Shown: positions 10,269 to 61,100 of the stretch, in pieces
Numbering within the stretch: the first letter of the stretch is position 1
Layout of the letters: each line of letters begins with the position of its first letter
Assembly (NCBI GenBank): GCA_963930775.1
Contig: OZ005696.1
Coordinates: forward strand, 248,001-312,000
Reading direction: 5' to 3'
DNA from: Cliona cf. orientalis
Lineage: Eukaryota > Porifera > Demospongiae > Clionaida > Clionaidae
DNA length: 64,000 nucleotides
Notes under the pieces: model-generated
The model's database searches: none
Seen by the model: only the letters and a program-made list of their open reading frames with translations
What the model was told of the DNA's origin: nothing
Made by a program: the position numbers and the translations under genes

Positions 10269-10314
10269 ATTGACATCACCATCGTGAACGCTAATTATAA
10301 CGGAAGAAAAAAAA

Positions 10315-10621
10315 ATGGCTACTGGCCATGGCAGTATCAAGATTCCCTCGAGAGGTGACACTACTCCCGAGTACAACGCTGCTCTAAAGTCGTGTGAAGA
10401 GATTGAACCCGCGATTATTCCTGATGATTTTGTTCGTCGAGCCCATAGCCGTGGACTGCTTCCCACTCGCAATCTATCAAGGCCGCCTCTGGACGTGATC
10501 CTGAACGAGATTTCTCGCGATCCCGTTAATTATTATTCCTTGCAACATGTCCTTGCCACCACTCTGAATGTGGGGAATCGCTTCAATGACGGTATCAGCA
10601 AGATGGAAACAACATTTCAGT
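10315..10621 (+). CDS. Gene B exon 1: CARD-like death-fold domain
   Basis: It encodes 102 residues from ATG 10315, preceded by a GGAAGAAAAAAAAATGG context like that of genes A and C. The core EEIEPAIIPDDFVRRAHSRG, LNEISRDPVNYYSLQHVLAT and FNDGISKMETTFQ aligns without gaps over most of its length to exons at 5607 and 50243. The donor is GTAAGA at 10622. Confidence 0.75.
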
Positions 10622-22600: not shown

Positions 22601-22786
22601 GCCCAGATATGCCATATATGTAATACATTACAAATATCCAAATATCTCAAAATAGGTAACTTTGTAAAAATTTTAAGTGTGAAAATCAGAATCTCCAGCA
22701 AATTATCTATCTAATAAGACCTAGATCATTCATCAAATCAATTGTATATGCCAGAACCAGATGTTCATAAAAATGGCCATTTCTCA

Positions 22787-22830
<44 letters not shown>

Positions 22831-25800
22831 CATTTCCAGGGCTAGCTCAAGACTGTCTGGACCTCTCACCTTAGTTCTCATATAAATCCACTCTATTTTG
22901 TAGCGCGCAGTGCAGTGGTACGCTAGTTTGGCGTTATCTCGACAGTTACGTGATAGTGGGTGTGTCCGGCGCATTAACGATTGGGTGTGTCTGATACGCC
23001 GCCATTTTGAAATATAATGCGCATGCTCGGAATGTGTTGCTATGGTGAAGTCATGTGACCGCGCCCTAGGCGATCGCGAGCTACGTAGCTAGCGCGTACA
23101 GCGGTGCGCTGGATCGCATGATCATGGATATGATGGTGCTAGGCTCGAGGAGCGGTAAGGCGCTAGGCATAGGCGAGCTATTCGCTAGCGCGTGCAGCGC
23201 TAGTGCTCCACTGGATCGATCATAGATATCATACTATCATACGAAGGCTCGAGGAGCGGTAACGTACAGATCACAAAATTATGCCAGGTAGCTACTGAGC
23301 TATAGCTGCTGCCAACAATAAAAATTATTAGAACTCGGTTTTCTCCCTATTAAGTCTCATGGGCCGCCTAAAATTAATACTAGTATAGGCATATGAACGC
23401 AAATTAATGAGGGGCATATAGCTACGAATTTTGACACCACCCACACTGGACAGAAATTATGATAAGATGGCATTGATAAACTATACTAAATACAATAAAA
23501 AAAGAACAGAAACAAGTATAAAAAACAATTGAATAAAATTGAAGAATGAAGTAGGGATGGCAGGATCAAAAAGTACACAAACAAGAGATAATCGTATCTA
23601 TTGTACATCCCTACGATTGCTTTTTGAGGGGTACAAAAATAACCAGTAATAATGCGATTGAATCAAAACTGATAAACTCGAACCATTATGACAACTAGGG
23701 AACAACCTGAATATCTCCCACATACTGCACTCAATAAACACGTCGACATTAATAGGTGCATAATAGTCGAGAAAAGCAAGCGTAGGGATGTACATGTATA
23801 GTAGATACGATTATCTCTTGTTTGTGTACTTTTTGATCCTGCCATCCCTACTTCATTCTTCAATTTTATTCAATTGTTTTTTATACTTGTAATATGGATT
23901 GCGAGCGTTCACCTCGTCTATGTGGGGCTCGCTCAGGCTCGCCCCAATTATACGTACCATGTCACTAGTAATATACTGTCAGCAGTTTGGCTACACTACA
24001 TGTGTAAGTGGGCAGTTAGTTTACACAAGCCAACTACTCGTGGTTAGTACAGCTAGGTATTTGTGGTTGTGTACTTGTACTGCACACTTAGCACTGTCTA
24101 GCAAATGCTCTATGTGCTCCAGTACTATTGCTATAGCTTGTATATATATATGCAGGATCAGGACATTAGAGCCCCGCGTTCCATAGCGCGGGGGGGGGGG
24201 GGGGGGGGGGGGGCGCCGCTCAACTGTGCTTTAGTGAGAACGCTGATTGATTTGCACTCCGCTCGAATTGTTAGGTCCATGCCTTGAGAACTTGATTTCT
24301 GGTTTATTGAATTAAAATGAACCACATCATAGGAAATATAGGCATACCAGGGTGGTGCAGCACCGTTCTAGCATACTGTGCTATGTGCACTATATTGACG
24401 ACCTTTACCATATGCACCATTACTGGCTGTTTCTTCATATAAGACTCATGAAATGTGCACAGTCAGCATTCATGTCTGCACAAAGGTAATATTATATACA
24501 CCTAGTTGTTGTTATATCGTATAGTCGTAGTGGTTGCTTTTGCTATTAGCCAGTACTGGTTAAGGTTACGGGTGACAGTTCGCCCACGCACGGGCATTTC
24601 CCATAGTGAGTAATGGAGCATACCAAGGTGAACCGCAAATGAAAATTCTGCGTCAAGTTTCGCGTAGATGGCTTCTCTTTTGACCGTAAGGAAGTGTTTA
24701 TCTTATTACTCAGACATGTGGGCAAGGCTGGAGTTGGTGTAAATTTGAAGGCCACCTATCAGAAAGCAGCTAGACAGCCGTGTTGACGACCTGGTCCGCC
24801 ATTACGCTTGGCGTGAATTACCTTCTTTTGTGTAGCTTTCTCTTTGTGGAGGCTCTATGAACTTGGGAACCAACTGCAGCACTGGAGTAAGTTAATTAAG
24901 TACTTCATAAACTAGAGCTCTCTCGAGCACAAAACCCTCGACGCGCTGCATGGCATTTAAGCTAGCTACATGCTTCAACAGTTGCATGCAGAAAAGGGGG
25001 CAGCTAAAGGGCTGGGGCCAGGGCCAGACAGGGATGAGGCTAATGTTATACTTGCACAGCAGTGTTATTCAAGACGGTTCAACAGCTCATAGCCGCTGAG
25101 CAACAACCCTAGCGTGTTGTATCGAACTCCACACTGTCCAATTCTTGGGGACTTAGCTAGCTATATCTTAACTAGAAGGACTATGAAGCAAAGCCTTGGC
25201 ACAAGACTGAAGTACACTGAGCAATATTGCATGTCCAATATTATTGCAACTCACTTGGTTTCAAGCACTGTAATTCCATGCATGCATACAAGCCAGAGAG
25301 TCAAAGGGTACCAGAATACAGGCAGCTAAGCCGCTTAGAATTGAAAAGAAGCAGCGGGCCACGATTGTCAAAAGCTCGCTGGTGGACTGAGGGGCGGGAT
25401 TGATGCAACAGCGCATGCGCTGAGGGTTATAGACGTGTATATACCGTATATAGTGCGCAACCTATTTATACGTTACATCATGCTATCGCTAACTCGGGCA
25501 AAGTCAAGAAGCTTAGAATCGGCAAATGACGCCAAAAACTGGCGAACAAAGCGTTTTCGGAGAAATCCACACAAATCATGAATTGGGAACGTCATAAGGA
25601 ACCTTGCAACACCGCAAATTGGACTCGCAAACGAGGTATGTAGCAGCTAGCGTGGTAACAGACAGACAGACAAACCAACTACAGTAACCCTCGCGCATGC
25701 GCCGAGGGTTAATAAGCTGTAGATAGTAGACTAGACCCCTTTGTCTAGGTAAAGCTTGACGCAAAAGTTCGTGACAATGGCGGCCATTGCCTGACTTTCA

Positions 25801-28722
25801 CGACGGGAAGGTCGCTTCAATGTTGTGACAGCTGTCTTTATCATCATGTTAGCTATAATTTCGTTTTTATTTCAGCTTCATAGCTGCTTCCCTTGTGGAG
25901 ATACAAGTAGCTTGTTACTCGCGAAAATTTCTAGATGCAAACTGTCACTCGTAACCTTAATGTAGTTGCCTATGGCTATACTGGTCACCAAATGGTTGTA
26001 CTGGTTGTATATGGTCGTATTGGTTGCTGTAGTTGACGATGGTCGTACTGGTTGTAGTAGTTATCAATGGGTGTATTGGTTGCTGCAGTAGTGTATTAGT
26101 TGATGGTTGCTGTAGTTGCCTTATAGTTGTACTGGTCACCAGTAGTTGTTCATAGTCGTAGCAGTTGCCAGTGGTTGTACAACTACAACCAATACAGCCA
26201 CTGGCAACTGCTACAACTATGAATGGCAACCAGTACAACTATACACAACTACTACAACCGTACTATGAATAGTACAACCTTTGGCAACTATAGCACATCC
26301 ATAGGCACTACCATAGCCAGTACAACCATATACGGCTACGATAACCAGTATAACCATTGGCAACTACTGGCGACCAGTATAACCATAAGCATGCAACCAG
26401 TACAACTACACTACAACCAGTACATGTATTGGCAACTAAGACAACCCATGCAACCATAGGCAACTACATTAACCAGTACTGGCTAATAGCAAAAGCAACC
26501 ACTACAACTAAACGATATAACAACTACAATGTAGGTGTAATATTACCTTTGTGCAGATATGTGCACATTTCGTGAGTCTTACATATACATGAAGAAACGA
26601 CTAACTGTCATACTATACTATTGCAATTATTATAAAAAAAACATTCCGGTACACAATACCTTTCCACACTATTAGCTTAGATGCCATGCATTCGTTTTCT
26701 TTGTGTAATAGATTGTGAACACAGAAGAGCCGGATCCATCAAATGGTAAGTATATAATACACTTGTCGTGTATTAATGCCATAATAGGCCAAGGCTCATT
26801 GTTGTACCGTATAACTATAATCCATTTATGTACAAGTATAAAAACAATTGAATAAAATTTAAGGATGAAGTAGGGATGGCAGGGTCAAAAAGTACATAAA
26901 CAAGCGGATTTGTAGGGATAATCACATCCACTATACATCCCTACACTTGCTTTTCTCGATTATCATGCACCTAACTTATTCATTAAGCGTTCTTGACTTG
27001 TGTATGGAAGATATTCCTGTTTTGCACTCCTCAAAACGCAAGTGTAGGGATGTATAGTGACCGGGTACCCGGACGTGACCTTCACGTGCACCTGCCATGT
27101 GCTTGACTGAACAGGGAAATCCCCCCTGAGAGCAAGCTCGCTAAAGAAAGCGAACTGAGAGAATCGCCATATATCATCGATAGTCTACGATCTCTTCTAC
27201 GCTAGGTTCAAATTCTGGGTCTCAACACCCTGTCATGCGCACTATACATTTTGAAGCAGTCATCACACCAATTTCGGCCGAATATCGATTTGTTGATTGG
27301 GACTCTGGACGTAACTGTGGTTAGCAGGGTTTCATTTAGGATTTTTGTCAAGGGGGAGCAAACATGACAATTCAAGAGCTAAGGGGGGGCAAAGACTATA
27401 GTATGTTTTTAATTATGAAGAATGATGTGCTCATGAACTTCATTATACTAGGGTGATGTAAATCATCGAGGGGGCGAGCCTTCGCTCATAATAATATTTT
27501 AAGTAGTAGAGGGGGAGGATTGGGATGCCCCTCTAGTACAAGCAGCTATTTGTTGCTCAGCTGAGTCAGTCTATCTTGTCACTCTGAAGACCAAGGGATG
27601 AGGAGCATGCGCCATTGAGGCTACTCTGACTACTACATGTATGTGGCTACAGAATTGTACAGCTAGCTAGCTACTAAAGTTAGCAGTCATTGCACCCAGA
27701 CTATAGGCCTAGCCTTTAATTTTGCTGTAGATACTTGTACTAATGCCTTACCTTTTCTTGTCTTCTAGCCGTCTACTCGAATGGGTGTGAGCTGCATCTT
27801 TTGGTGAGCTTTATTTAGAATTAGCGCGGCTAACGTTGACGATCTTTACCGCAATGATTACGCGCATGCGCTATGAGCTAGCGAGCACGTGTTTGACGTA
27901 TCGCTACATACATGTACATAAAAACATACATAAGTACAGCGATTTTCTCGTAGTATACTGATTAGTGTGGGGCTCGCTCAGGCTCGCCCCAATTAGGGGG
28001 GGTCTGGAGGTATGCTCCCCCAGAAAAAGTTTTTACTGTTTCAACCTCTGAGCCTGTTTCTGGTGGCTTCTGAGCACTCGTATGGGGAAAGTCTGTCAGT
28101 AATATCAGGAGTACATTACCTGGTAATATCCACTGGTTCCTGTATATTTCAAGTCAAATGTTGCAAGGATATGGGATATGTGTCTCCTACTGCGTGTAGC
28201 GCGAAGCTTCAGCTCATTTATGGCTTAAAAATGAGCAAAACTGCCTCTTTTACTTGTGCATGTATTGCATGTATGGATGGTGGCTACTCTCAAGGGGGGG
28301 CAGCCAGCCTCCAAGGGGGGGGGGCGAATGACCCCTCCCACCCCCCACCCCCCCCCCCCCCCCCCAAAATGAAACCCTGATTAGAGTAAAGACTCTGGCA
28401 GTTATACCATAGCCAGTCAGTTATACCATGCACCATGTACAAGGTGTTGGTGTACATACAGTACAAGCCACTTATACTCTAGCCTTATCGTGGTTTACAT
28501 GATTGTACACTCGAGGGTATATAGTATAACTATAATATCACTGATATTCCCACCTCATCTTCAGATAATTTCCCTGATGGTAATTTTCAAGCTGAATGTA
28601 ATCCCATCGCTGACACTAATGCTCAAGCACTAAGTGCTAATCAATCACCACAAGACAATTTCTCACCGGCTATTGGCACTTCCTCCAACCAGGTGGCACA
28701 CAAATTACCGTATAAAGGGTAA
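10315..28722 (+). CDS. Gene B: CARD-like plus TIR receptor with truncated D-type cassette
   Basis: Proposed exons are 10315-10621, 15751-15807, 15870-16303, 26712-26745 and 28565-28722. They sum to 990 bases, with all phases compatible and a stop at 28720, giving 329 residues. Exon 1 is the CARD-like domain, exon 2 the linker, exon 3 TIR, and exon 4 the short linker (IVNTEEPDPSN). Exon 5 opens like exon D (GNFQAECNP, then SANQSPQDNFSP) but runs into a TA-flanked element that supplies the TAA. Alternatively a donor at 28693 could splice in phase 0 to the basic tail exon at 29242. Intron 1 is 5.1 kb against 79 bases in A, wholly because of inserted elements. The 10-kb intron 3 makes expression as one transcript uncertain. 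Confidence 0.55.
10881..12155. repeat. Tandem unit 1 with CACACTAAGTAGAAAA ends
   Basis: A non-coding 1.28-kb unit bounded by CACACTAAGTAG at the left and CTGCTTAGTGTG at the right, which are inverted ends next to A- or T-runs. It is repeated almost base for base at 12171-13472, and a damaged inverted copy lies at about 55805-56395. It contains a short internal tandem repeat (CCCCTAGCCTTGTGTGTGTG) and a 70-nt hairpin. Confidence 0.6.
11766..11835 (+). repeat. 70-nt near-perfect hairpin, copy 1
   Basis: CCTTAGATGATTTCCA pairs with TGGAAATCATCTAAGG, and the inner GCTCTAACTG pairs with CAGTTAGAGC. The same hairpin recurs at 13093-13162. It may be element structure or an RNA hairpin. Confidence 0.6.
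12171..13472. repeat. Tandem unit 2 of the same 1.3-kb repeat
   Basis: A direct copy of 10881-12155 with few differences, separated by about 15 bases. The reading frames in it are repeat sequence, not genes. Confidence 0.6.
13093..13162 (+). repeat. 70-nt near-perfect hairpin, copy 2
   Basis: Same stem as at 11766. Differences in the apical part improve pairing here (TGCGC with GCGCA). Confidence 0.6.
14273..15706. mobile_element. Mutator-like non-autonomous element, 1.43 kb, in intron 1 of gene B
   Basis: Starts TAGTCTCGTGACCCAGCC and ends GGGCCACAAGACTA. The exact 9-bp repeat GAGTTGACA flanks it (14264-14272 and 15707-15715). A second inverted pair sits inside (14340-14455 and 15085-15190), made of GGACTGGACT-type runs. 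No coding frame is convincing. Confidence 0.75.
15870..16303 (+). CDS. Gene B exon 3: TIR domain
   Basis: Begins after TTTATAG and ends at a GTATTT donor, phase 0. It carries KVFISFSRRK, CKPWMDENELEFGDVLA, IMTGGYATSLLCLRELYYAAL and KTIIPMLLEGE. The Trp of SLWCLREL in A and C is Leu here, while the Glu in the putative catalytic place (about residue 205) remains. A TA-flanked element lies just after the donor. Confidence 0.8.
16328..16844. mobile_element. Miniature element, AAGGCATTGTGCCACGATAT ends, TA duplication
   Basis: A 517-bp unit with inverted ends of about 25 bp (right end CACAATGCCTT), flanked by TA. It lies just downstream of the TIR exon of gene B and is non-coding. Confidence 0.6.
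16845..17493. other. Non-coding, no recognised feature
   Basis: No supported exon, RNA or clear inverted repeat is seen here. It is presumed intron 3 of gene B. Confidence 0.4.
17531..17573. repeat. GTCT microsatellite
   Basis: An imperfect run of GTCT units lying inside the dispersed repeat. A shorter run occurs in the second copy near 43335. Confidence 0.7.
18925..19063. repeat. Foldback repeat, copy 1
   Basis: GTTAGACACTGTTTAG at the left faces CTAAACAGTGTCTAAC at the right, with GATTTAGAAGACC pairing inside. A second copy is at 47087-47222. It is a short foldback or miniature element. Confidence 0.65.
19069..19474. mobile_element. Miniature element, CCGTATTTCCTCGA ends, TA duplication
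   Basis: A 406-bp unit with ends CCGTATTTCCTCGA and TCGAGGAAATACGG, flanked by TA, with GGCGGCGACTA-type subrepeats. A close relative in inverted orientation is at 34155-34526. The reading frame inside is repeat-derived. Confidence 0.7.
19786..19832. repeat. Short hairpin repeat
   Basis: TCTCGCTAGCCACACCCT pairs with AGGGTGTGGCTAGCGAGA around a short loop. It is probably the fused ends of a miniature element. Confidence 0.55.
20033..20820. mobile_element. Inverted-repeat element with a perfect 120-bp tandem duplication
   Basis: TCAAGGGCTTATCGAGCCGC at the left matches GCGGCTCAATAAGCCCTTGA at the right in inverted form. The similarity continues about 50 bp. Inside, 20093-20212 is repeated exactly as 20213-20332. 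No reading frame is convincing. Confidence 0.7.
21153..21425 (+). CDS. Possible small secreted peptide or orphan first exon
   Basis: A 90-codon frame starting MKLRAWLLIICALGTAVTAC has a credible signal peptide (basic, then hydrophobic, with a likely cut near VTA-C). The rest (CEVVDTSRLCDSKPG and onward) has no family I recognise. No partner exon or promoter is seen, and an antisense frame of similar length exists. Chance is a real alternative. Confidence 0.2.
   Translation: MKLRAWLLIICALGTAVTACIPAILCEVVDTSRLCDSKPGTTVMEQIEFAIDLVHYEPPRSRKPLNSLSRTDCLDPIEPLSMILLLIVDR
21703..21762 (+). repeat. Hairpin with perfect 18-bp stem
   Basis: AGTTATATGGCAGCCACT pairs exactly with AGTGGCTGCCATATAACT around a 24-base loop. 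It could be a tiny inverted-repeat element or a hairpin RNA. Confidence 0.6.
22177..22371 (-). CDS. Short basic protein fragment, mobile-element-like
   Basis: From the Met at 22371 the frame gives 64 residues with a strongly basic run (EAKREKRLQRRRERERAHR) and an acidic end. Arg-rich runs of this type open many mobile-element proteins in sponges and cnidarians. I cannot name the family. It is probably a decayed fragment. Confidence 0.3.
   Translation of the reverse strand, partial: SSTNTQSAEAKREKRLQRRRERERAHRAPYRSKQKAPKEDTLSEIEPVISSIAQGPAKNTIKID
22788..22831. repeat. TTTC microsatellite
   Basis: About eleven TTTC units. Confidence 0.9.
23065..23268. repeat. Degenerate two-unit tandem repeat
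   Basis: Two units of about 95 bp, each ending GGCTCGAGGAGCGGTAA, rich in GCTAGCGCG. It is non-coding. Confidence 0.45.
23514..23889. mobile_element. Foldback element, 376 bp
   Basis: Arms of about 110 bp: AAGTATAAAAAACAATTGAA at the left and its reverse complement at the right, with GAAGTAGGGATGGCAGGATC inside. A partial copy lies at 26834-27053. It is non-coding. Confidence 0.65.
24190..24213. repeat. G homopolymer, 24 bases
   Basis: An unbroken run of G next to CGCG. The length is likely unstable or an assembly estimate, and it could form a quadruplex. Confidence 0.8.
24214..25965. other. Non-coding with a decayed dispersed repeat
   Basis: No supported exon. The part at about 25440-25710 is an inverted relative of the ACCCTCGGCGCATGCGC repeat seen at 17494 and 43296, including a GACA/GTCT run. 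Confidence 0.4.
25966..26480. repeat. Inverted minisatellite of CAACTAC/CAGTACAACC units
   Basis: To about 26178 the strand reads GTTGTACTGGTTG-type units. After that it reads the complementary CAACCAGTACAAC units, making a large imperfect palindrome. The frames inside, rich in Thr, Tyr and Asn, are repeat artefacts. Confidence 0.7.
26712..26745 (+). CDS. Gene B exon 4: short linker exon
   Basis: Acceptor GTGTAATAG and donor GTAAGT bound 34 bases reading IVNTEEPDPSN plus one base (phase 0 to 1). Exon 57308-57350 of gene C has the same flanks (GTGTAATAG), phases and a CCATCAA-G end, so the two are homologous. Confidence 0.6.
26834..27053. repeat. Partial copy of the 23514 foldback element
   Basis: ACAAGTATAAAAACAATTGA and the following 100 bp match the 23514 element. 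The right end is replaced by unrelated repeat sequence. Confidence 0.55.
27060..27240. repeat. Dispersed repeat, inverted copy at about 35490-35720
   Basis: TCACGTGCACCTGCCATGTG through AGCGAACTGAGAGAATCGCC and the CTACGCTAGGTTC stretch recur reverse-complemented at 35490-35720. It is non-coding. Confidence 0.5.
27325..28379. mobile_element. CAGGGTTTCATTT-ended element with a nested insertion
   Basis: Starts CAGGGTTTCATTTAGG and ends AATGAAACCCTG. It is a relative of 52288-52780. About 540 bp (near 27452-27994) with GGGGCGAGCC-type ends has been inserted inside. The right part has long C and G runs. It is non-coding. Confidence 0.6.
28565..28722 (+). CDS. Gene B exon 5: truncated D-type cassette
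   Basis: After CATCTTCAG the frame reads DNFPDGNFQAECNPIADTNA and then ANQSPQDNFSPAIGTSSNQ. This closely matches the opening of exon D at 36466, including the preceding intron. Similarity ends exactly where a TA-flanked element (28708) begins, and TAA at 28720 lies in that element. Confidence 0.65.
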
Positions 28723-29107
28723 TTTTCGTGGGGGGCTAATTTTCGTTATTTTCGTGACTGCTCTAACAGTCACGAAATTTACACCCCACGAAAATTTGCC
28801 GCAGTAGGTAAAGGTCTTCTGGTAAAGTTGCCTCGAGTGTGCGTGCACGTGATCGTGGTCAAAACGCATGGTATCGGCCTCCAATCAATTGAGTCTCTGC
28901 GACCATCGAACACAGTATGAGACTGGAAAATTTCTGTTTCTGTCACTTCGGTGACAGTCATCAGTAGGTTTGCTTGATGATGGCGAACGGGGTGTGGCAA
29001 GTGCAATCGTCAAGAGCCACGGAATTTAGACCCACAAAAATTAAATTTGGAAGCTAAATCTTACTTTTCACGAAAATTAATACCCTCGAAAATTTCCCGC
29101 TATACGG
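28708..29107. mobile_element. Miniature element, CCGTATA ends, TA duplication, truncates gene B
   Basis: Starts CCGTATAAAGGGTAATTTTC and ends CCCGCTATACGG, flanked by TA. Immediately after it begins sequence homologous to the region before the tail exon of gene C. Confidence 0.65.
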
Positions 29108-30115
29108 TATTTCTTGATGTACAATTCTTCCCTTCCCTTGAAGAGAAATGTTTTGTCCCAGGAGTATTTTCATTCTAGTGAAAACATGTCCGACCTATGA
29201 AAATATACTACCTTAATTGAATTGATGTTTTTTCCCCTCAGGCCTCGAGTGGAAGTGACTCTGAAGTTCCAGTGAAGAAACTGAAGACCACACCCCTGGC
29301 CCACCCACACCAGCACAAGCGAAGGAGGAGCAAAGCTCGCACCAAACTCAGCCCCCAACCGAAGACATCGAGACGTCGAGAACAGAGACTGAAGGAGGAA
29401 CTGAGTAATAAGCCTTCATACTCAGGACACAAACAAGGTAAAGCAGGAGTACATGTGGTTAAATGATTGGGGTTTTACCATGTAGGCTAATCAGGCCAGC
29501 AAAATTTCATTTTGTCCATACAGATGTGAATGACATGGATTATCAGCCATGAATATTGTATCATAAGTAGATAAACTCTGTCATGATGCTTTGATTGTAC
29601 GTATACTGCTTGCATCCATGAGCTCTTCGTAGTATGGCAATCTAACTTAAACTGGAGACAAAAGCTCATTACAAATCAAGATAATCCTTTCCAATATATA
29701 TATTCAAACACTGCTACTTTTGTAGACATAAAATTGATTTTGGAACTGGTACAGGGGTGCATGTGTTGTTGCTTTTGAGCTGTCAAAGTATGAAAAAATA
29801 GACCTGTGGCTCAATAGTACACAGTTTACCACAAGAATATAACAAGCCACAATTGCTTCCTGCTTCCTGGAAATCCATGTAGCCCGCCTAACCAACAAAA
29901 GCACACCCAGCCAATAGACTCTAGACCATGCTAGAATCTGTATGTGCAGCTGCTCAAGAACAGAAACAAGGCTTTTCCGTAGAAATTGTTGCCTGAAACT
30001 TCTCAAAACTCTCAGAAACAGCTCTCCATGAAAGGGCCTTCACTGGGAGGTGGATGCACTTCGGTAGAGAACGCTTTCAGGTTACCAAGTAAGACTTGTC
30101 TGCCTCTTCTTGAGT
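29108..30115. repeat. Segmental duplication of the 3' end of gene C
   Basis: This stretch is colinear with about 60717-61805: upstream intron, basic tail exon and about 650 bp of downstream sequence. A second, internally deleted copy follows at 30166-30480. It is evidence for past tandem or ectopic duplication of whole receptor genes. Confidence 0.7.
29242..29466 (+). CDS. Basic tail exon, copy linked to gene B
   Basis: Acceptor CCCCTCAG and phase-0 start GCC TCG AGT as in gene C, with a stop at 29464. It encodes about 74 residues, rich in Lys and Arg (KKLKTTPLAHPHQHKRRRSK). It could be spliced in phase to the donor at 28693 of gene B; otherwise it is a relic. Confidence 0.5.
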   Translation, partial: ASSGSDSEVPVKKLKTTPLAHPHQHKRRRSKARTKLSPQPKTSRRREQRLKEELSNKPSYSGHKQGKAGVHVVK

Positions 30116-36404: not shown

Positions 36405-36465
36405 ATGCATAATAATATGTTTATAGTAGATCTATACGTTACTGATATCCCCACCTCATCTTCAG

Positions 36466-37877: not shown

Positions 37878-37977
37878 GTAAGCAATACACACTTGTTGAT
37901 GGTACCATACTTCAAAAAATTCTGCACCCTTTACCAAATGATTGAAAATAGTTTCTAATCTTTAGCAAAGCATACAT

Positions 37978-49795: not shown

Positions 49796-50146
49796 TAGGA
49801 CACGCTTGACCTTTGGCTATTAAATAGTTCACTAATTAAATCGCCAGTATAGGCTTTCGTGAAGAATATCGTTGCGATTTTCGAACTCAGCGCTATTGAT
49901 TTAGTGGGGGAGCCCCTCTTAGTTAGCACTGTAGAGCAGGTCTTTGGAATGTTAATCAAAGCGGCTGATTAACATTCCAAAGACCTAAAAATTGCTCTAC
50001 AGTGCTAACTAAGAGGGGCTCCCCCACTAAATCAATAGCGCTGATTTCGAAAATCGCAACGATATCCTCTAAAAACCTTCACGAAAGCCTATACTGGCGA
50101 TTTAATTAGTGAACTATTAGCCAAAGGTCAAGCATGCATGTCCTAC
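49796..50146. repeat. 350-bp near-perfect palindrome upstream of gene C
   Basis: Arms of about 160 bp meet at ATTAATCAAAGCGGCTGATT-like centre sequence near 49965. Long stretches such as GAGGGGCTCCCCCACTAAAT are exact inverted matches. It ends about 97 bp before the ATG of gene C. It is a foldback element or recent inverted duplication. Confidence 0.8.
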
Positions 50147-50242: not shown

Positions 50243-53200
50243 ATGGCTGAATGCACTCCTACTGGCGGCACCAAGATTCCCTCTAGCGGCGACAGTACTC
50301 TCGAGTACAACGCTATTCGAAAATCGCGTGGAGAGATTGAGCCCGCGATTAATCCTGATGACTTCGTTAGTCGAGCCCATAGCTGTGGACTGATTCCCAC
50401 TCACAATCCTTCGAGGCCGCCTCTGGACGTGGTCCTGAACGAGATTTCTCGCGATCCCGTTAACTATTACTCCTTGACACATGTCCTTGCCACTCTGAAT
50501 GTGGGGAATCGCTTTGATAAGGGTATCAGCAAGATGGAAACAACATTTCAGTGTAAGGATGATGAGTGTGATATGACATACATGTATATAAGGAGTTTGG
50601 ACATGATTAGCCTCGTATCCAGGCCCTTTGAGGAAGAGGAGAAAGGGCCTGGTACACACTGTACGCGAAATTTACGGAGCATTTTCTAGTACTAGGGACA
50701 CACGTGAGTGCAGGAATTTCCTGGCTCAGTGCACAAGCCAATAAGGCCATACCAATTTGAATATATGTTTCTCGGATCCGGCGGGTCACATTTTGCTGAA
50801 TTCCAAAAAAAAAAAAAAAAAGGGTGTGGTCAAGTGTTGGCAATAATAAACGCTGTATATCGACATGGCGCATGCGCATAAGTATACTGTCTACGTAATC
50901 GACGAAAATTAATTAATTTTAGGGCTTTGTTAACGGACATGTGGCTTTTATATTAATTTTATGTCACTGTATTGTGGTTTTGCTTGAACTTTGCATTGAT
51001 AATAATCAGATTCAGATTTTTTTTTTTTTTTTTTTTTTGCCTGCCACCCGGGTCTCTTTTGATGGCATGCCTGTCCGAGAAACATATATTCAAATTGGTA
51101 TGGCCTAATTGGTTAGGATGCGGTGAGGATACTGGATTTAGAGTTGCACCACACCCCACAAAGGAAGGCAAGGTAGGACGAGCGCTGGACGGGGCCCGAC
51201 TAGCCTCGTGCTTTGGCACGTCCTCGTGCTTGGCACGTGCCAAAGCATGGGGTGGGGCAAGTTTGCCTCAATACGAGTCAGACGGTGCTAAAATCCTTGC
51301 GGTTTGTAGATCTATTTGACTGTCTCTGGCGAGGCGCTAGTTAAGACTAGGAGTCTGAAAGTTTAGTATTGGATAGGTACCGGCTTTAGGCACCTCCTAT
51401 GTTTGTGAAGGAGCTGACGAAGGGACTACAGGATATGTGCAAAAAAGTCCACGGACGCAACATTACGCCCACACAGTAAGTCCAATTTTTAGCTATAGTA
51501 CAGCTCACAGGCAACTTGACAAACGAGTGCGAGTGACACGCGTGTAGTGAAGCGCTTGCTCGCGAGTCAATTTCCGGCAACCGCGTGTACCCAGGAGCCA
51601 CGTCTCGAGTGCACGCGCTCGCGAGGGCACACGCAAGTATTCGAGACTCGACAGCAAAAAACCTAGCTAGTTTGTGAGCTAGGTATAGTTTTACTGCCTC
51701 TCTTCTCTCAACAAGCTGCTAAAGCTTTCTAAAAGTCTCATGCCTCGGCTGCTCGCGATCACGTTCGCGAGTACTCGAGACTCGTCATGCAAAAAGACGA
51801 AGAATAGGAAGCTTATCTATGCCTAGCGAATCTTTTACTACCTCTCTTCGCTCGGTAAACTCACCAGCGTTCATCAAAAAGTACGATAAGTGCGCGAACT
51901 GCCTGTTGTCTCGATCTTGCCACCATTATCTTGTTGGTGCAATAATTGGACCACGCCCTAAACGTACTCGCGAGTACGTGCGGATATGCACGAGCGTGCA
52001 AGTACTCGCGCTTGCGCGTCGAGGGTGCCTTTTGCATGCGCGCGTGAACGTCCAGGCCACGCGAGTCACCTCCTCGCTACTCGCACTCGTTTGTCAAGTT
52101 GCCTGTGATCTGTACTGTAGGTTGTCAGTTTGACATGTTCAAAGAGTGGGCCGATTGTCAGCCAATCTGTGAGTAGTAATGAAATGGGGGCCACAACTGT
52201 GACAGTGGAGTGCGACCTTTAAGGGAGGCGCACAATTTTTCAAATGGGGTACATATACTTAGGCAAGATGAAGCATTGCACGGCTTTCAGGGTTTCATTT
52301 AGGGGGGGGCGGGAGGGGTCATTCGCCCCCCCTTGGAAGCTGGCTGCCCCCCCTTGAGAGTAGCCACCATCCATACATGCAATACATGCACAAGTAAAAG
52401 ATTTAAACGGTGAAAGTGTTGAAAGCGGCAGTTTTGCTCATTTTGAAGCCATAAATTAGCTAAAGCTTCGCGCTACGTGCGGTAGGAGACATATCCCACA
52501 TCCTTGCAACATTTGACTTGAAATAGAGGAGAACCAGTGGATATTACTGACAGACTTTCCCCATCCGAGTGCTCAGAAGCCACCAGAAACAGTCTCAGAG
52601 GTTGAAACATTAAAAAATTTTCCTGGGGGAGCATACCCCCAGACCCCCCTAATATAATGAAGTTAACGAGCACAATGTCATTCTTCACGGATGGAAAAAC
52701 ATACTATAGTCTTTGCCCCCCCTTAACTCTGGAATTGTCACGTTTGCCCCCCCTTGACGAAAATCCTAAATGAAACCCTGGCTTTGTACACTTGGCAGCA
52801 GGTTAGCAATCTGATCAACAGTTGATAAACTGCAAAGGCTGGCCTGTGTTGCTCTGGTGGCCGAAAGCGATATTTTAGAAATTTGGGAAACCTCGTAAGT
52901 GCAACCAGGACCTGAGTGGGAACCTCGCTTCGCTCGGAATAATTTGCCGGATATTGGCATTACCACGCGGTCGGACAATGTATATACTAAGCAGCCCATG
53001 GCATCCGAAGTCGGTGAAGCCTACAGACTGGATATTTCTAAAGAATATCGTACAGAAGACTTTCTTTGCTCTCATTTGACTTTAAATAAACCTTCTTGAG
53101 CTTCAGAGATCTGACAAAGTCACTTCGCTGCCGTTGGACAACTGCCTCGGTATCGATACTTCCATTTTTCATAAAAAGTCGACTAAATGTGAGTCGATGT

Positions 53201-56200
53201 CCTTCTCATAGCTTCTTTATTATTCTTCTGTCGATATTGCTCGATTGTGATAGCTAAATTTGTCATAGTAGGCGTCTTGAGCCCGAAATGCTGCCAGCAA
53301 AAATGATTTTTAGGCATATACCTGAGATCAAGGTTCACGTTTACGGACAGATAAGCGGACAAAAATACGAATTCCCAGCTTTTACTGGGAAAATAACGCA
53401 TGCGCACACAGTGTGTACCAGGCCCTTTCTCCTCCTCCTCAAAGGGCCTGGGTACGAGGCTAGGACATGATAGTTTCACTGCACATTATGATTAATTTTT
53501 ACAGCGGAAATGAGACAGTACATTCCTGCCAGTTCACCTGAAGATCCTACAGTTGAACCAGGTATGTCCGTAGAATAATGGTTATAATATATCACCGGAT
53601 CTGAGAAAACCTGGCACATTTGTCAAATGCGCATATGGCGCAATGCGCATTCTTAGCATCTCCAGTCAAAAAATATGAAAGTCCAATTTTTGTCATATTT
53701 ATGTCAAAGAACCTTTCTACTAACCGTTGCCACCACCTACGGAGGGTAAACGTAAGTCACCAAGGTGAAATAAGCGTTAGTTTGTACAGTATGTTCATTT
53801 CGAACGACTCTGCCCATGGCCATTTAATTTCTTTTCTGGGTCACGCGTAGTATACGGATATGCTATACTGTACGTGTGCATAGCAACGCCTTTAGACTAT
53901 AATTTCTCAATTATTGAGGGTGTGGTGCGATCGGAAACAAAGCGCTCTAGCTCCACAGTCTAGCACGCGATGTGTCTGAGACTTATAGCCCTATGATGAA
54001 TATGGGGTGTTTTGTCAGATCCAGTCACATATGTGACGGGATCTGACAAAACCTGGCATATAGGATCTGCATACTATTCGCGCAATGCGTGTTTTTAGTA
54101 CCTCAATATTAAAAAAAATGTCGAAGTTGAGTTTTTGTCATATTCATGCCAAAAACCTTTCTACTAACCTTTGCCGTCGTCTACAGAGGCTAACCATCAT
54201 AAGTTACAAAGGCGAAATAAGCCTTCATTTTTACCTGTACCTAGTGTGTACAGTTGCCGTACACGGAGCCCATTGCTATGGGCGCTAATTAGAATTCCCG
54301 CCAGCGGGCTATCTAGATACAGCTAGATTCATCGAACTACTGTATGTTCACTCACCTTTTTAGCTTCGAAGAACAATCGGCTTAGCCTCGTCCCCAGGCA
54401 CCCCGATCTTTTCAACTGCACGCGAGAAAAGAGGGGGAGCCTGGTAAAACTTATCACGTGCGTGACGTCAGGTGGAACCAACTTCCATATATGGCACAAC
54501 AGCGAGTTGGCCAAGATCAAGCCGAGAGTTCAAGTTCTTCAATCACTACGTTACAATCGGCTATGAATCAGCAAGAGGAGACGCTTCAGCATCATCTTTG
54601 CTATGTGTCAAAAACTGCGATTTGCATGGTAACTCAATCGTGTCCATGCTCAGGTGAAACCGACTTGGACGTGGCACGATCGAGTTTATCATGCAAATCG
54701 CGGCTTTTGACACCCAGCAAAGGGACTGAAGGGCCCTGGCTTGCTGATTCATAGCTGATTGTAACGTTCAGATCGAAAAGCTCGAACTTTGGTGAGAAAT
54801 TCTGTGCCTCAAGCCAGCCAACTTGCTGTTGTGCCATATATGGAAGTTGGTTCCACCTGACGTCACGCGCGTGATAAGTTTTACCAGGCTCCCCCTCTTT
54901 TCTCGCATGCAGTTGAAAAGATCGGGGCGCTTGAGGACGAGGCTACAATCGGCTGTCGTTGTCAACAACGAAATTCAACTATTGCTCGATCCTTATGTTC
55001 ATTTGAACGGCTCTGCCCAGGTCCATATAATTGATTTCCGGGTCATGCGTAATATGTGGAAACGCCATACGCATGCATAGCAACACCTTTGGACCGTAAT
55101 TTCTCGATTATTGGGGGTGTGGTGTGATCACAAACAAAGCGCTGTATCTCCGCAATAAAACGCATAGTTGGTCCGAAACTTGAACGCGGGTTAGCTCTAT
55201 GGTAGAGCTTGTCAACCATACATCAAACTCAACTTTCATAAAAAAAATCGCATATGCCAGGTTTTCTCAGAGATAGTCACCATGGTTATATTTTGACCAA
55301 TTTCCTGCTATTTATAGAAAATCGTCCCAAAGTGTTTATTAGTTTCAGCCGGAGAAGAGTATATGAAGACTCACCAGATGCATACACTGAAGCCAAAGGC
55401 CTCTATGCCGAGTTGGAGGCCCAAGGATGCAGACCTTGGATGGATGAAAAAGGCCTCGAGTTTGGAGATGTCCTGGCTAAGGAGATTTTCTGGGCAAGTA
55501 AACAGTGTGATTTTATCATCCCCATCATGACCAGCGGCTATGCTACCTCCCTCTGGTGCCTCAGGGAACTATACTATGCTGCACTGCAAAAAGATCCCAA
55601 GAGGAAAAAGATCATTCCAATGCTGTTGGAAGATGAGGATGTTATCGACCACCAAAAGGCGGGCAAGTGGCTGTTGAGTATTGGAACGGGACAAAAGTAC
55701 TTCAGAAAAGAGGAAAAGGCGGCCATGGTCAAATCTTTGAAAGATAAGGTATTTTCTATTCTATCCACACATGATAGGCTTGGTACATTAAGTTTAAGAA
55801 TCAGGGGATAATTGCAAATGCATGGCTTCCTATACAAATATATGGGATAACTTCAAAGGACCCTAACTTTAATTCTAAGGTGTGAATCAAAATTCCCCAC
55901 AGTCAAATCCTTAGTTTCTACCCATTCTGCATGCACATATAAAAATTGTGGCAGAATATGCTTTATAGACCCCTAAGACTTTTCTTCTTCCCTATTCCTT
56001 TTTTCTTTTCAAGCAGACCATGGCACACTAAAAATTTGTCCAAACAGTTGAGCTGGATGCATAGTAGAGCCATACAATACAAGCTAGTCTATCAAGCGAG
56101 ACCCCTTTTTTGCCCGACGACCTTTACCCACTCTATCCACCGAAGTGGGTAATGGTCGTCACGTTGATGTGCGCGCGTGGGCGGAAAACATTGCAAATGC

Positions 56201-59200
56201 ATGGCTTCCTATACAAACATATGGGGAAACTTCAAAGGGCCATAACTTCAATTCTAAGGCGTGAATCAAAATTCCCCAGGGTAAAATTTTTTAGTTTTGA
56301 TCCCTTCTGCGTGCCCATGTAAAAATTATCTCCCCAAGTGCTCCCAAACTCCCCGTGAATTTTTATTTGCTTTTTTTTTCTACTTAGTGTAGTACTTAGT
56401 GTGTTAATTAATTATAGTCTGAGAATGTTTATTGTACATAGTATGTGTGGACATTTTCAATAGGACAGAATAATATTATTTTTCCCTGTGACAATGGTGC
56501 TAGATATTCCTATAGTACTTCCTGAATGTATTACACAATGATACTACCGTAGATCGCAAAATTTTTGCCATTAAAATTTTTTCGTCAACGGCCTTTTTCG
56601 ACGAAAGTTAAACAAGCAACATATTTTTGCTAAAATCTGGTGACAAAATTTAGACTATGCAAAAAATTTACAAGCAGAATATTTTACTAGCAAAAATATC
56701 CTGGTCTACTGTATATGCATGCTAACTGTCATGTTATGACAATAATATACTAACCACAATACCGTATTTTCTCGTTATTAGGTGCATTTTACTTACAAGC
56801 GCATATTCGTTATTAAGCGCATGCTATTTTGTTGGCCTAAACACTCGCTATTAGGCGCATTTCACGTAATAAGTGCATAATATTATGTGACCCTTGACCT
56901 CAATATCTGCATGCTTGCTAGCGTTCCAGCCTTTTCAAGTTAGTCAAAATCACGATGGCTATTGTCAAATTTTCAGGTTCTTCCAGCATAGATAATAGCT
57001 ATGCTTCCAGCAATGAACGCCATTTTGACCTGGGCTGAATGCAGTAACGTGAACGATCATGCGATCAATCGATTGGCCATGCCCCTTAAATGATACCGTG
57101 AACACGCATGCGTTCTTGATGTAGCTATTTTAGTTAGGCGCATCTGGCTGTTAGGTGCACTTCGCTGTTAAGCGCAGGTTTTCTTCCTGTGGAGATATAA
57201 GCGCATGCGCTTAATAGTGGGAAAATACGAAATGCATGCCTGGACACAATATTATTATTTATCTCCCACACTACTAATTTACATGTTATGCATTCTTTGT
57301 GTAATAGATCAGTGTGAAAAAGCAAGAGAGATTGCCGCATCCATCAAGTGGTGAGTATACACTGTGGCTATTAATGGTCAAGGCTCATAATGTTGACACC
57401 ACCCCCCACCCCCCTCCCCCTTCCCCCACACGCACACACACGGGCCTGTAAGTATGGATAGGAACCTGGCTACTAAATATGTATTGAATATGATTTGCAT
57501 CATTAAAATCCTTTACATGTTTGTGTGGAATCCTCCCATTACACTCTATAGTGCAGATACTGAAGTGGGGCTAGCTAACTTGCTGTACATTATGTAGCTG
57601 AGCACTTTTTCAAGAAGATCTATTATTAGCTTGACTAGTGTAATAAATGCATATTCTTCCATATAGAGTATAGTGCATTCAATTCCCACTAACGATAACA
57701 AATTGTGTATTACTCATAGGTGCTCACAGGAAGATATCAGTTGAATGCTCCAGGTTTATCTCCAGTATGAAAGGAAAGTATCTAGAAAGGCGTATCATTC
57801 ATGGGAAACAGTGGCCCCCTTGCCACTCAAACAGACTGGTGAGGTTAGAGAGAGAGAAAGGAGAGGGCTACTCTGCTAACACACAGAGAGGCAGAGAAGA
57901 TAAAGGTATCAAACGCACTTCCCTAGCTTATGGTGACCTCTTTAAGGTGGAGAGTGGGAAGAGGCGAGTTAGAAAGGTCCTTGTAGAAGGTGATGCTGGC
58001 ATAGGCAAGACCACTCTCTGTATAGCAGTCTCTGAGGACTGGGCAAATGGGAAGCTATTTCAGCAGTTTGAGTTAGTTCTCCTCTTACCACTTCGGATGA
58101 AGGCAGTAGCCTCAGCAGGCTCCCTTCCTGAGTTGCTCAAGCTACTGCACCCTAGTCCAAGGCTCTGTGACTCAGTAGCTAAGTATTTAGAAGACGAGGA
58201 GGGAGAGAGTGTGCTCATCATTGCCGATGGATGGGATGAGCTTGGTAAATCTGAACGACAGGAAGGATCTTTTTTATACCAATTTCTTTTTGGTCCCAGA
58301 TTTTATCTCATGTCCATTGTAGTGACCTCTCGACCTACTGCCTCTGCTCCACTTCGTGAGCTTCCTGATATTGATCGATTTGTTGAGGTGTGTGGCTTCA
58401 GCATAGAGCACATTGTAGAGTACATCCAGTCAGAGTTTACCAGTGACCAGGGAAAGGCAGATCGTCTCAGAGAGCAGTTAGAGGGCAACCCACTAGTTGA
58501 GAGTGTGTGCAGTGTTCCCCTCAACTGTGCCATTATTTGTCACTTGTGGCGCACTCATGAGGAAGCCCTTCCCACCACCATGACAGAGCTCTATACTAGG
58601 ATCATTCTTAACTCTGTTTTTCGGAGCATACATAAATTTGACTCTTACAAATCTGTTTTAAAGCTGCATAAATTTGATTCACTCCCTGCAGACTTACAAC
58701 AGTCTTGGTGGCTTCTGTGTGAGTTTGCTTTTCGGGCATTGGAAAAGGATCAACTTGTTTTTTCTCAAGAAGAGCTAGAGGCATTCTTCCCCGAAAGCTT
58801 AGCTTTGGATAAAAGGATCCTATACTTTGGCTTACTACAGTCTGCTGAGTCAGTTGGTGTTGGCATATCTTTCCACTTTCTCCATCTGACCTTCCAGGAG
58901 TACCTTGCTGCCCTGAACCTGACAAGACAACCAACAGACAAACAACTTGAGATCTTTCAGACACACAAGACAAAATCTTGGTCCTCACCACATCATTTTA
59001 TAATGGTATGCAGGTTTTTCTTTGGCATTAATTTTAATCTTGAGTTCAATGCCGACACAATTTCTTCTATTCAGCAAATGTTGGAATGTGTAGCAAGTGA
59101 TCTTATACCCGACCGTTTATCCATTTGCCACTGTGCTTTTGAAGCCCATAATGACTTAATCAATAAGAATGTTACTCAATATTTAGTCACACACCCCTTA

Positions 59201-61100
59201 CTTGATACGGTTTACTTTGGTCATCCTCGCACTGCTCATGACTGTAGTGCAATACTCTATGTTATTGCTAACTTGCAGGAGTGTCGTTATGGTTTGGAGG
59301 TTAGCCTTGATAATGCTAGTGAGAACCAAGTTAAAGAACTAGTGGGCATACTAGCTAATAAGAAAGGAAAGCTATGGATTTCTAAATTGGATCTGAGTGG
59401 TAGTAGACTAACAATCTCTAGTCTGCAGGTATTAGAAAGTGCAGCACGTGGTTACATGTTTGCTGAATTGGAGGACCTTAACCTGGAGGGGTCTCTCACC
59501 AGTGATGCTGACACTAATGCTAAGTGGTTAGTTACTCTTTCAGGTCATTGTCCTAACCTGAAGAGGCTTGATCTTTCTTACAACAATCTTGGTGTTCCTG
59601 GAGCATGTGCTCTAGCGAAACTATATGTAAGTGATCAGTTGTATTTAAATGAGACCAATCTTGGTGACAATGGTTTGGCTATTGTGGTTAAGAGTTTCAA
59701 AGTCATATCTCACGGCCTTGGGTTGGTAGACAATGATATCCATGCCTCTGGTATTTCATGCTTGGCTGATGCTGTTTGTTCAGGAGAGCTTGAGCTGTTA
59801 TCAAAATTTAATATTATTCATGATTATGAGAGTGCGCTTGATCTCAGTGGCAACCCACTAGGACTTGAAGGAACCATAGCTGTTGGTAGGATGCTCAGTA
59901 GTAGTCACTGTGAACTGTACAATGTTAACTTGTCCAGGTGTGATCTAACAACAGCTGGGGGTTGTCTTCCCAGTACTGACTCTATATCTTGTGAGGCTGT
60001 GGGACGACAGCTTTGTCAAATGCTTCAAACTAATACCGTAATGTCGCTTATTCTGGATCACAACAGCTTTACAGGTGATGGTATTCACATTCTAGTGTCC
60101 TTAATGCACTTGTGTCCAAGTTTGGAATATCTCAGTACCCATAACTGTGGTATCACTTCTGATGACCTCATATGGCTTCTTGATAAACTCGAATCTTCAT
60201 CACCTGATCTTTGCAGTGAGCTAAGAGAATGGTACCTTCAGGATAATCAAATAGATGGCAGAGGTGTGTCTGCTCTAATAGATCACCTACCATCACTCTT
60301 GCCTCGTTTGGGATGTAGTGCATTTGATATTGATAGCCTTTCCAGAAACCCAGTTATACACAATAGTGAGATGATGGAGACGCTGAAGGAGGAACTGGCT
60401 AGACATCGAGAGAGAGAATCCGATGAGGAGGAACAGACAAGACTTCATTATGATATGGAGAAGAGTCATGAGGTGAAAATGCATGAAGAGGTGAGCTGAT
60501 CTGAATCTACTGTAACTAGATACTATGCTTTACTGATTTCTCCCCCAATGAATGATGCATTGTTGCATGACAAGATGTTCAACACATATAGCTATAATAT
60601 TTAAACAATCGTTTGTTAAAAGTATCCATATTTGAATATATGGAATTTTTTGAACTGTTTTCTTATGGATGTATACACTATATTGAGGCTAATGCATTTT
60701 TATTGAACTTTGTTTTCTTGATATACGATTCTTCCCTTCCCTAGAAGAGAATGTTTTGTTCCAGGAGTATTTTGCAAAATCATTCTAGCCAAAAAAAGTC
60801 CAACCTATGAAACTCCACTACCTTAATTGAGTCACTTTTTCACCTCAGGCCTCGAGTGGAAGTGACTCTGAGCTTCCAGTGAAGAAGCTGAAGACCACGC
60901 CCTTGGCCCACCCACACCAGCACAAGCAAAAGAAGATAAGGAAGCAAAGAAGGCAACGAAAGAGCAAAGCTCGCACCAAACTTAGCCCCCTACCGAAGAC
61001 ATGGAGACATCGAGAAGAGAGACTGGAGGAGGAACTAAATGATGAGCCTCTATACACACAACAAAATCGAGGTAAAGCAAACCAACAAAGAGTGAGTTAG
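50243..61100 (+). CDS. Gene C: CARD-like, TIR, NACHT, LRR receptor with basic tail
   Basis: Exons are 50243-50552, 53505-53561, 55318-55748, 57308-57350, 57720-60490 and 60849-61100. Lengths sum to 3864 bases, so the frame closes exactly, giving 1287 residues. Order: CARD-like domain 1-103, linker to 122, TIR about 123-266 (KVFISFSRRR, RPWMDEKGL, SLWCLREL, Glu 206). A short linker precedes NACHT at about 365-530 (GDAGIGKTT at 371, LIIADGWDEL at 446, VVTSRP). LRRs lie at about 835-1170, then an acidic coiled segment and a Lys/Arg-rich tail. NACHT proteins oligomerise on ligand sensing. TIR and death-fold domains would be the outputs, so an intracellular immune receptor is inferred. No signal peptide or membrane segment is seen. 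Introns 1 and 2 are filled with transposons. Confidence 0.8.
50608..53462. mobile_element. Mutator-like element, 2.86 kb, in intron 1 of gene C
   Basis: Starts TAGCCTCGTATCCAGGCCCT and ends GGGTACGAGGCTA, with inverted ends of about 55 bp. The exact 9-bp repeat GGACATGAT flanks it (50599-50607 and 53463-53471). It has no transposase frame. Nested inside are an inverted pair at 51497-52110 and a CAGGG element at 52288-52780. Confidence 0.8.
52288..52780. mobile_element. CAGGGTTTCATTT-ended element, 5-bp duplication
   Basis: Ends CAGGGTTTCATTTAGG and CCTAAATGAAACCCTG. GCTTT is duplicated on both sides. The same family occurs at 27325 and, with diverged ends, at 63299. It is non-coding. Confidence 0.65.
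53593..54028. mobile_element. GTGACCGG-family element in intron 2 of gene C
   Basis: Left end CACCGGATCTGAGAAAACCT, right end GTCAGATCCAGTCAC. It directly abuts a second family member at 54033. The pair is bracketed by ATGGTTATA on both sides of the intron. Confidence 0.55.
54033..55280. mobile_element. GTGACCGG-family element carrying a nested Mutator-like element
   Basis: Left end GTGACGGGATCTGACAAAAC, right end GGTTTTCTCAGAGATAGTCAC. About 685 bp of its own sequence surrounds the 563-bp element at 54383. Confidence 0.6.
54383..54945. mobile_element. Mutator-like miniature element, 563 bp, 9-bp duplication
   Basis: Starts TAGCCTCGTCCCCAGGCACC and ends GGACGAGGCTA. The arms run over 100 bp and include the CACGTGCGTGACGTCAGG stretch. 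CAATCGGCT flanks it exactly (54374-54382 and 54946-54954). The ends match the 7687-10268 element. Confidence 0.8.
55318..55748 (+). CDS. Gene C exon 3: TIR domain
   Basis: It takes one base from exon 2 (phase 1) and ends in phase 0 at the GTATTT donor. Box 1 is KVFISFSRR, box 2 lies around RPWMDEKGLEFGDVLAKEIF, and IPIMTSGYATSLWCLREL contains the Trp-Cys-x-x-x-Glu pattern shared with NAD-cleaving TIRs. Confidence 0.85.
55805..56395 (-). repeat. Inverted, rearranged fragment of the 1.3-kb CACACTAAGTAG repeat
   Basis: AATGCATGGCTTCCTATACA occurs twice (about 55816 and 56197) in inverted relation to 12360. The end CTACTTAGTGTAGTACTTAG at about 56380 is the repeat terminus. It lies in intron 3 of gene C. 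Confidence 0.55.
56762..57229. mobile_element. Miniature element, CCGTATTTTCTCGTTATTAG end, TA on left
   Basis: A 468-bp unit in intron 3 of gene C with inverted AAGCGCATGCGC and TTAGGCGCA runs. The right end is slightly decayed. Confidence 0.55.
57720..60490 (+). CDS. Gene C exon 5: NACHT-LRR cassette
   Basis: A single 2771-base open exon, phase 1 in and phase 0 out. The Walker A at 57989 (GDAGIGKTT), Walker B near 58214 (LIIADGWDEL) and SRP motif mark NACHT. A winged-helix-like region follows, with FLHLTFQEYLAALNL typical of NLR proteins. LRR units read LKRLDLSYNNLGVPGACALA, LDLSGNPLGLEGTIAVG and LILDHNSFTGDGIHIL. The last 40 residues are charged and coiled-coil-like. No internal stop or frameshift is seen. 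Confidence 0.9.
60849..61100 (+). CDS. Gene C exon 6: basic C-terminal tail
   Basis: Acceptor CACCTCAG, phase-0 start, stop TAG at 61098. The 83 residues are rich in Lys and Arg (KKIRKQRRQRKSKARTK), which resembles a nuclear or nucleic-acid-binding tail, then an EERLEEEL helix. Copies at 29242 and 30298 show that the exon travels with the gene family. A donor-like GGTAAAGC at 61072 might add a further exon. Confidence 0.65.
   Translation, partial: ASSGSDSELPVKKLKTTPLAHPHQHKQKKIRKQRRQRKSKARTKLSPLPKTWRHREERLEEELNDEPLYTQQNRGKANQQRVS

Follow-up and report, generated by a model that had tools for sequence, protein, structure and literature searches.

A sponge gene family predicted to join an N-terminal domain, TIR, NACHT and LRR in one receptor

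Cliona cf. orientalis carries a clustered, expanded family of NLR genes in which an N-terminal domain (E1) and a TIR domain are encoded in front of NACHT and LRR. The member analysed here lies within a window of 64,000 nucleotides, the whole stretch of DNA that was examined, and a sequence-only reading had described it as a single gene with a CARD-like front end. With the exception of the CARD-like label, we confirm from the genome sequence that the observation of an E1-TIR-NACHT-LRR gene is real. We consider it probable (about 0.6) that in this family the E1-TIR front is joined to LRRs that would sense, a NACHT that would oligomerise and a TIR that would consume NAD+.

The gene occupies positions 50243-61100 of the plus strand. 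Its six exons join in phase without internal stops, as had been proposed, and yield a predicted protein of 1287 residues; all five introns have GT/AG borders, and their phases are 1, 1, 0, 1 and 0. The exons are as follows.

50243..50552, plus strand: exon 1 (E1), with start codon and donor CAGT/GTAAGG; N-terminal domain of ~100 residues, weakly CARD-like
53505..53561, plus strand: exon 2, a 19-residue linker that is seen again in paralogs
55318..55748, plus strand: exon 3, TIR domain; WCLREL motif with putative catalytic Glu
57308..57350, plus strand: exon 4, a mini-exon of 43 nt, 40 nt long in paralogs, that connects TIR and NACHT
57720..60490, plus strand: exon 5, NACHT and LRRs
60849..61100, plus strand: exon 6, Lys/Arg-rich tail and stop; the least certain exon

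Exon 6 gave no Pfam match above cut-off, and is supported by homologs found 3' of several NLR copies. Were the last intron retained, the frame would stop at 60499, before this exon is reached.

The TIR, NACHT and LRR domains named by the sequence-only reading were all recovered with Pfam: exon 3 matched TIR_2 (4.5e-17) and TIR (1.4e-7), and exon 5 matched NACHT (E 8.2e-19, above the curated cut-off) and LRR_6 (E 3.5e-9, above cut-off). Exon 5 contains GDAGIGKTT at residue 371 and LIIADGWDEL at residue 446, which we take to be Walker A and Walker B-like motifs respectively, together with FLHLTFQEYLAAL at residue 667 and six motif-like repeats in the LRR region. The best solved match of the NACHT in the PDB is NLRP3, and NB-ARC was absent among the hits to Pfam and to solved structures, so that the nucleotide-binding domain is not of the plant TNL type. 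A bona fide NLR is defined, in the available text of PMC12909245, as a protein with NACHT and LRR; the predicted protein has both, a NACHT with Walker motifs and a C-terminal LRR.

Among solved structures, the TIRs of plant L6 and Roq1 were the top matches of the window TIR in the single-sequence and the profile search alike. A TLR TIR chain (7ylf) also matched, with an E value of 5e-4 singly and 5.3e-6 by profile, and in the profile ranking bacterial Cat1 and this TLR TIR came before RUN1 and RPV1. NCBIfam models of bacterial anti-phage TIRs matched as well, far under their cut-offs (retron TIR 3.6e-8, Thoeris ThcB4 3.3e-7). The nearness to plant TIRs is therefore not exclusive, and by its sequence the window TIR is of the broad TIR_2 kind. 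SARM1 was not among the PDB sequence hits of either search. The Glu aligned to the plant WCLxEL motif, a putative catalytic residue, is kept in 20 of 22 TIR copies; it is replaced by Gln in L025 (C8:1070647) and by Ala in L028 (C8:1063225). The full WCLRE is found in 18 of the 22, the Trp being missing in L024 and L030. At the L028 locus exon 1, mini-exon 4 and NACHT/LRR are in place, and at L025 exon 1 is broken. As in plant TNLs, a predicted TIR with this Glu precedes the nucleotide-binding domain, here in second position, behind E1.

E1 itself resembles no family closely. The window sequence had no Pfam or NCBIfam family match, and searches with a profile or with individual members gave chance-level matches only (lowest E 1.2 in the PDB and, for one of 12 members, 0.21 in Pfam). 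The notion that E1 is a recognised CARD or Death domain was accordingly dropped, there being no usable match in the Pfam, NCBIfam and PDB profile searches. We compared the E1 profile with 10 CARD and 12 Death sequences, all of them Pfam matches from the same genome. Against CARD it reached a weak score of 13.8 over 32 columns, equalled by five of 150 column shuffles (shuffle mean 9.9, maximum 16.1), and with the profile reversed the score was 9.6; its Death score was equalled by 72 of 150 shuffles. Single CARDs compared with the other CARDs, as a positive control, scored 26-97. Profile alignment paired E1 columns 18-51 with CARD columns 2-35, 34 columns in all, at a probability of 0.9%. On these comparisons E1 is at most possibly a diverged CARD. 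Near-full-length E1 paralogs are 71-84% identical.

The genome, whose 149 contigs total 216.8 Mb and in which the window is C8:248001-312000, was searched for further copies of the exons. The TIR exon was found in 23 copies at E <1e-20, including a partial one with two stops, exon 1 in 22 copies after split matches were joined, and the NACHT/LRR exon in at least 49 copies after joining (49 of 494 candidates scored). At 17 of the 23 TIR-exon copies, E1, TIR and NACHT/LRR follow one another in this order on one strand. Sixteen of these 17 loci, the window gene included, have gaps of <5 kb; in the seventeenth, on contig C1, the gaps measure 2.6 and 13.5 kb and mini-exon 4 stands between TIR and NACHT. 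Of the six TIR copies outside this group, three are at C8:245319, C8:254112 and C8:263872, C14 carries two, and the last is the partial copy of C1. No TIR stands in front of 32 of the NACHT/LRR copies listed (at least 49). Five of the 17 loci have a stop within the NACHT/LRR exon, and exon 1 is broken in L015 and L025. Nine other TIR matches of the genome (31-37% identity) were considered as additional TIR-NACHT fusions and rejected, none being within 500 kb of a listed NACHT match; this was judged by eye against the NACHT matches listed (103 of 490 candidates scored). Two of the incomplete family members share the window with the intact gene.

5607..6546, plus strand: copy of E1, exon 2 and TIR; a downstream NACHT/LRR exon was not found
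10309..29445, plus strand: apparent decayed family member; NACHT/LRR exon not found
10321-10620, 15753-15806 and 15869-16303, plus strand: first part of the decayed copy (E1, exon 2 and TIR, respectively)
26697-26752 and 29242-29445, plus strand: later part of the decayed copy (mini-exon 4 and exon 6, respectively)

We infer that the pieces between 10309 and 29445 are a single decayed copy. The window also holds, at 36339-37958 on the plus strand, an open frame of 539 residues encoding a fibronectin type III domain (Pfam fn3 9e-9). On the minus strand, the open frame at 41813-42340 matches a transposase RNase H domain below threshold (PF21787 6.8e-5).

At least six of the TIR-less NACHT/LRR copies have a Pfam Death match within 5 kb upstream on the same strand. 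Five of them are on the plus strand of C8 (1076133, 1083823, 1089788, 1096102 and 1102185) and the sixth is at C8:443572, as counted by eye among the matches listed (150 of 1292 candidates scored). These sister copies of the window gene, with Death exons in front, are like sponge NLRDs. At a TIR-type locus whose exon 1 is broken, a Death match lies directly 5' of that exon (C8:1069273-1069479), like two front ends in tandem. In two Death-type NLRs (L044 and L045) an apparent second Death-like stretch was seen by eye 5' of NACHT, in two frames. A tree of 25 NACHT segments was built, 15 with TIR and 10 without, the latter including three with a listed Death exon in front and one with mini-exon 4. 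It required seven changes between TIR and no TIR, compared with 8.1 in shuffles, and 150 of 500 shuffles were as low; a single NACHT clade of the TIR types was rejected (p-AU 9.9e-5). Most branches of the tree were weak, with two of 22 starred. The tree is compatible with two histories: either front ends have been repeatedly exchanged or lost, or the NACHT exons have been homogenised.

In order to describe selection, dN/dS ratios were estimated for the separate parts of the gene. For the TIR the ratio against the window gene was 0.18-0.44 in 18 of 21 paralogs (L015, L021 and L025 were left out), and for exon 1 it was 0.38-0.80 in 14 of 16 paralogs, the broken L015 and L025 being left out; as the window gene is common to all these comparisons, they are not independent. 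Exon 5 was analysed in all ten pairs of five sequences, one of which has a stop. Here the ratio was 0.57-0.93 for residues 281-640 and 0.71 for residues 641-800, and on the LRR side 1.00 for residues 801-1010 and 1.03 for residues 1011-1204. Sliding windows within 801-940 reached 1.24-1.55, NACHT residues 401-460 also reached 1.45, and between 921 and 1020 the values fell to 0.65-0.78. Synonymous distance was low, 0.08-0.10, at residues 365-640, which fits gene conversion. The coding sequences thus record purifying selection on the TIR, and much less of it on the LRR, where the ratio is near one.

That the window contains two neighbours, an E1-TIR adaptor gene and a separate NACHT-LRR receptor gene, might be argued from the E1-TIR copies that stand without a NACHT/LRR exon and from the many NACHT/LRR copies (the 32 of at least 49 listed) without a preceding TIR, but the splice sites speak otherwise. 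The exon 1 donor TGTAAG follows the same codon in 16 paralogs with exon 1, and the borders of exon 2 recur in those paralogs, except in L023, which has the donor GC for GT. The exon 3 donor has the identical position in 21 of 22 loci, window counted, and lies six bases further in L021; past this donor the frame differs between copies by indels, so read-through is not kept. Between TIR and NACHT, mini-exon 4 with AG/GT borders and matching phase occurs at every one of the 16 close loci (the window and 15 paralogous ones). In the 15 paralogous loci it agrees with the consensus at 30-40 of 40 positions, the weakest being L039 with 30, whereas in a shuffle control (60 shuffles, one locus) the matches averaged 20.4 and reached 24 at most; the intervals before two Death-type NLRs gave best matches of 22 and 20. 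Genome-wide, a search for mini-exon 4 listed 20 copies and missed the known one in L039; by this search, which misses at least one known copy, it precedes just one of the 32 TIR-less NACHT/LRR copies (C8:627597). The recurring order at 17 of 23 TIR copies, together with mini-exon 4 in 16 of 16 close loci, thus indicates one spliced gene of a family. The two-gene reading, very improbable by comparison of paralogs, is rejected in view of the conserved mini-exon and splice sites, and the earlier proposal that one gene encodes the N-terminal domain, TIR, NACHT and LRR is upheld by 16 further loci.

A different doubt concerns the state of the window copy itself, whose first two introns contain large inserts.

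50608..53462, plus strand: transposon-like insert in intron 1, 2855 bp, with 60-nt terminal inverted repeats and the 9-bp flanking repeat GGACATGAT
53587..55281, plus strand: probable insert in intron 2, 1695 bp, its borders resting on the 9-bp flanking repeat ATGGTTATA
54383-54945: hairpin element of 563 bp inside the intron 2 insert

When the inserts are subtracted, intron 1 measures 88 nt and intron 2 measures 52 nt, so the long introns of this gene are mostly insertions. The paralogs likewise have a short intron 1, and most of them a short intron 2, which measures ~340-410 nt in L013, L015, L020 and L023. With two inserts of this size the window copy may be poorly spliced, and one could go further and regard it as a decaying locus of a live family, silenced or mis-spliced through the insertions. 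Sister copies in the same window have decayed, and the stops in NACHT/LRR at five of 17 loci and the broken exon 1 of L015 and L025 point the same way. The window copy, however, retains its 1287-codon frame and every splice site intact, and we think it improbable that it is such a locus. At 49823-50118, ending 125 bases 5' of the start codon, lies an element with inverted repeats of 85 nt and 42 nt that can form a hairpin; an effect on the promoter is possible.

Building on the gene structure, domains, family, active-site-motif Glu and selection pattern established at the level of sequence, the receptor that we favour, with an NAD+-consuming TIR, may work as follows. The LRR would sense a microbial or altered-self ligand, upon which the NACHT would bind ATP and oligomerise; the TIRs stacked in this way would consume NAD+ and lead to defence or cell death, by analogy with plant TIR-NLRs and SARM1. 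E1 would serve as one more module, for assembly or as an adaptor, and may be a diverged death fold. In plant TIRs the Glu is required for NAD+ cleavage. The catalytic Glu of SARM1 is likewise described as needed for NAD+ cleavage, and TIR assembly is described for the plant receptors ROQ1 and RPP1, in the available text of PMC8635717. The replacement of the Glu by Gln or Ala in two of 22 copies, the missing Trp in two others, the match to a TLR TIR, the lack of SARM1 among the PDB hits, the large inserts that may impair splicing of the window copy and the missing family match of E1 all count against our explanation. Some of these observations would suit a receptor of the same build whose TIR is a non-catalytic scaffold and recruits a MyD88-like adaptor. 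Animal TLR-type TIRs act in this manner, recruiting adaptors by TIR-TIR contact, and the TLR chain 7ylf is among the hits (before RUN1 and RPV1 by profile). Yet L6 and Roq1 rank above that chain in both searches, the bacterial anti-phage models also match, if below cut-off, and 20 of the 22 copies keep the Glu. A scaffold TIR seems rather unlikely to us. Two outputs on one LRR sensor, death-fold assembly and TIR, had been suggested for this gene; their coexistence is something that we can only infer.

In plant TNLs, TIR stands before a STAND ATPase and LRR. The window gene is like L6, Roq1 and RUN1 in this order, and shares WCLxEL with L6 and Roq1; unlike them it has an NLRP3-type NACHT, not NB-ARC, and E1 in front. 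Plant TNLs and the animal E1-TIR-NACHT-LRR gene have presumably assembled the same parts independently. Animal NLR-type receptors usually have a death-type domain as their front end. With NLRP, NOD and the sponge NLRC, NLRD and NLRX types the window gene shares NACHT and LRR, NLRP3 being its best solved match; it differs from them in having E1 and TIR where they have CARD, Death or PYD. SARM1 and MyD88 couple TIR to other assembly domains, and are similar to the window gene in that TIR is joined to further domains, but are without NACHT or LRR.

For the sponge Dysidea avara, the available text of PMC12909245 describes NLRs that begin with CARD, with Death or with no identified domain, a few NLRX whose N-terminal domain is of another kind (left unnamed in this text), and 14 TIR genes, of which six have Ig domains and one a Death domain. 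TIR counts are given as 56 for Terpios hoshinota, 36 for Halichondria panicea and five for Amphimedon, without architectures, in the portion available of PMC12465263. The accessible parts of the respective papers report TIR-NACHT in amphioxus (PMC2575513) and TIR with NACHT in cnidarians, TIR being the domain most often combined with NACHT in Cassiopea xamachana; proteins with NACHT and LRR are absent in the surveyed medusozoans, the group of Cassiopea (PMC8260672). As in the window gene, TIR and NACHT are joined in one predicted protein (PMC2575513, PMC8260672); E1, the exon structure and the clustered array are features of the window family that the accessible parts do not describe. An animal TIR-NACHT-LRR protein is not named in the parts available of PMC11797021, PMC5094078, PMC8242945, PMC4083563, PMC10236652 and PMC10952240. 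The phrase 'TIR-NACHT-LRR' had no match in the literature searched, main texts without supplementary tables, which does not imply its absence from print. The sequence-only reading was right that TIR occurs with NACHT in some cnidarians (PMC8260672, as available). Its remark that the four-part order is unfamiliar holds insofar as that phrase is unmatched; since TIR-NACHT is already in print for amphioxus and cnidarians (PMC2575513 and PMC8260672, available text), the novelty is narrower than it had stated.

The usual contrast is between plant TNLs, with an enzymatic TIR output, and animal NLRs, with death-fold recruitment. It is conceivable, at somewhat less than even odds, that the family represents a TNL-like class of animals independent of that in plants, in which a new assembly domain and an NADase-type TIR are driven by NACHT-LRR, and in which E1-TIR and Death fronts are swapped within the array so that one pool of sensors serves two outputs. 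If this is true, a TNL-like TIR placed before an NLRP3-like NACHT-LRR would mean that animals have reached the same combination, and NAD-derived signalling as an output of animal NLRs would become testable. In the array, closely similar NACHT/LRR exons are preceded by E1-TIR in some members and by Death exons in others, and this arrangement would then amount to a natural experiment in which one sensor is given different outputs.
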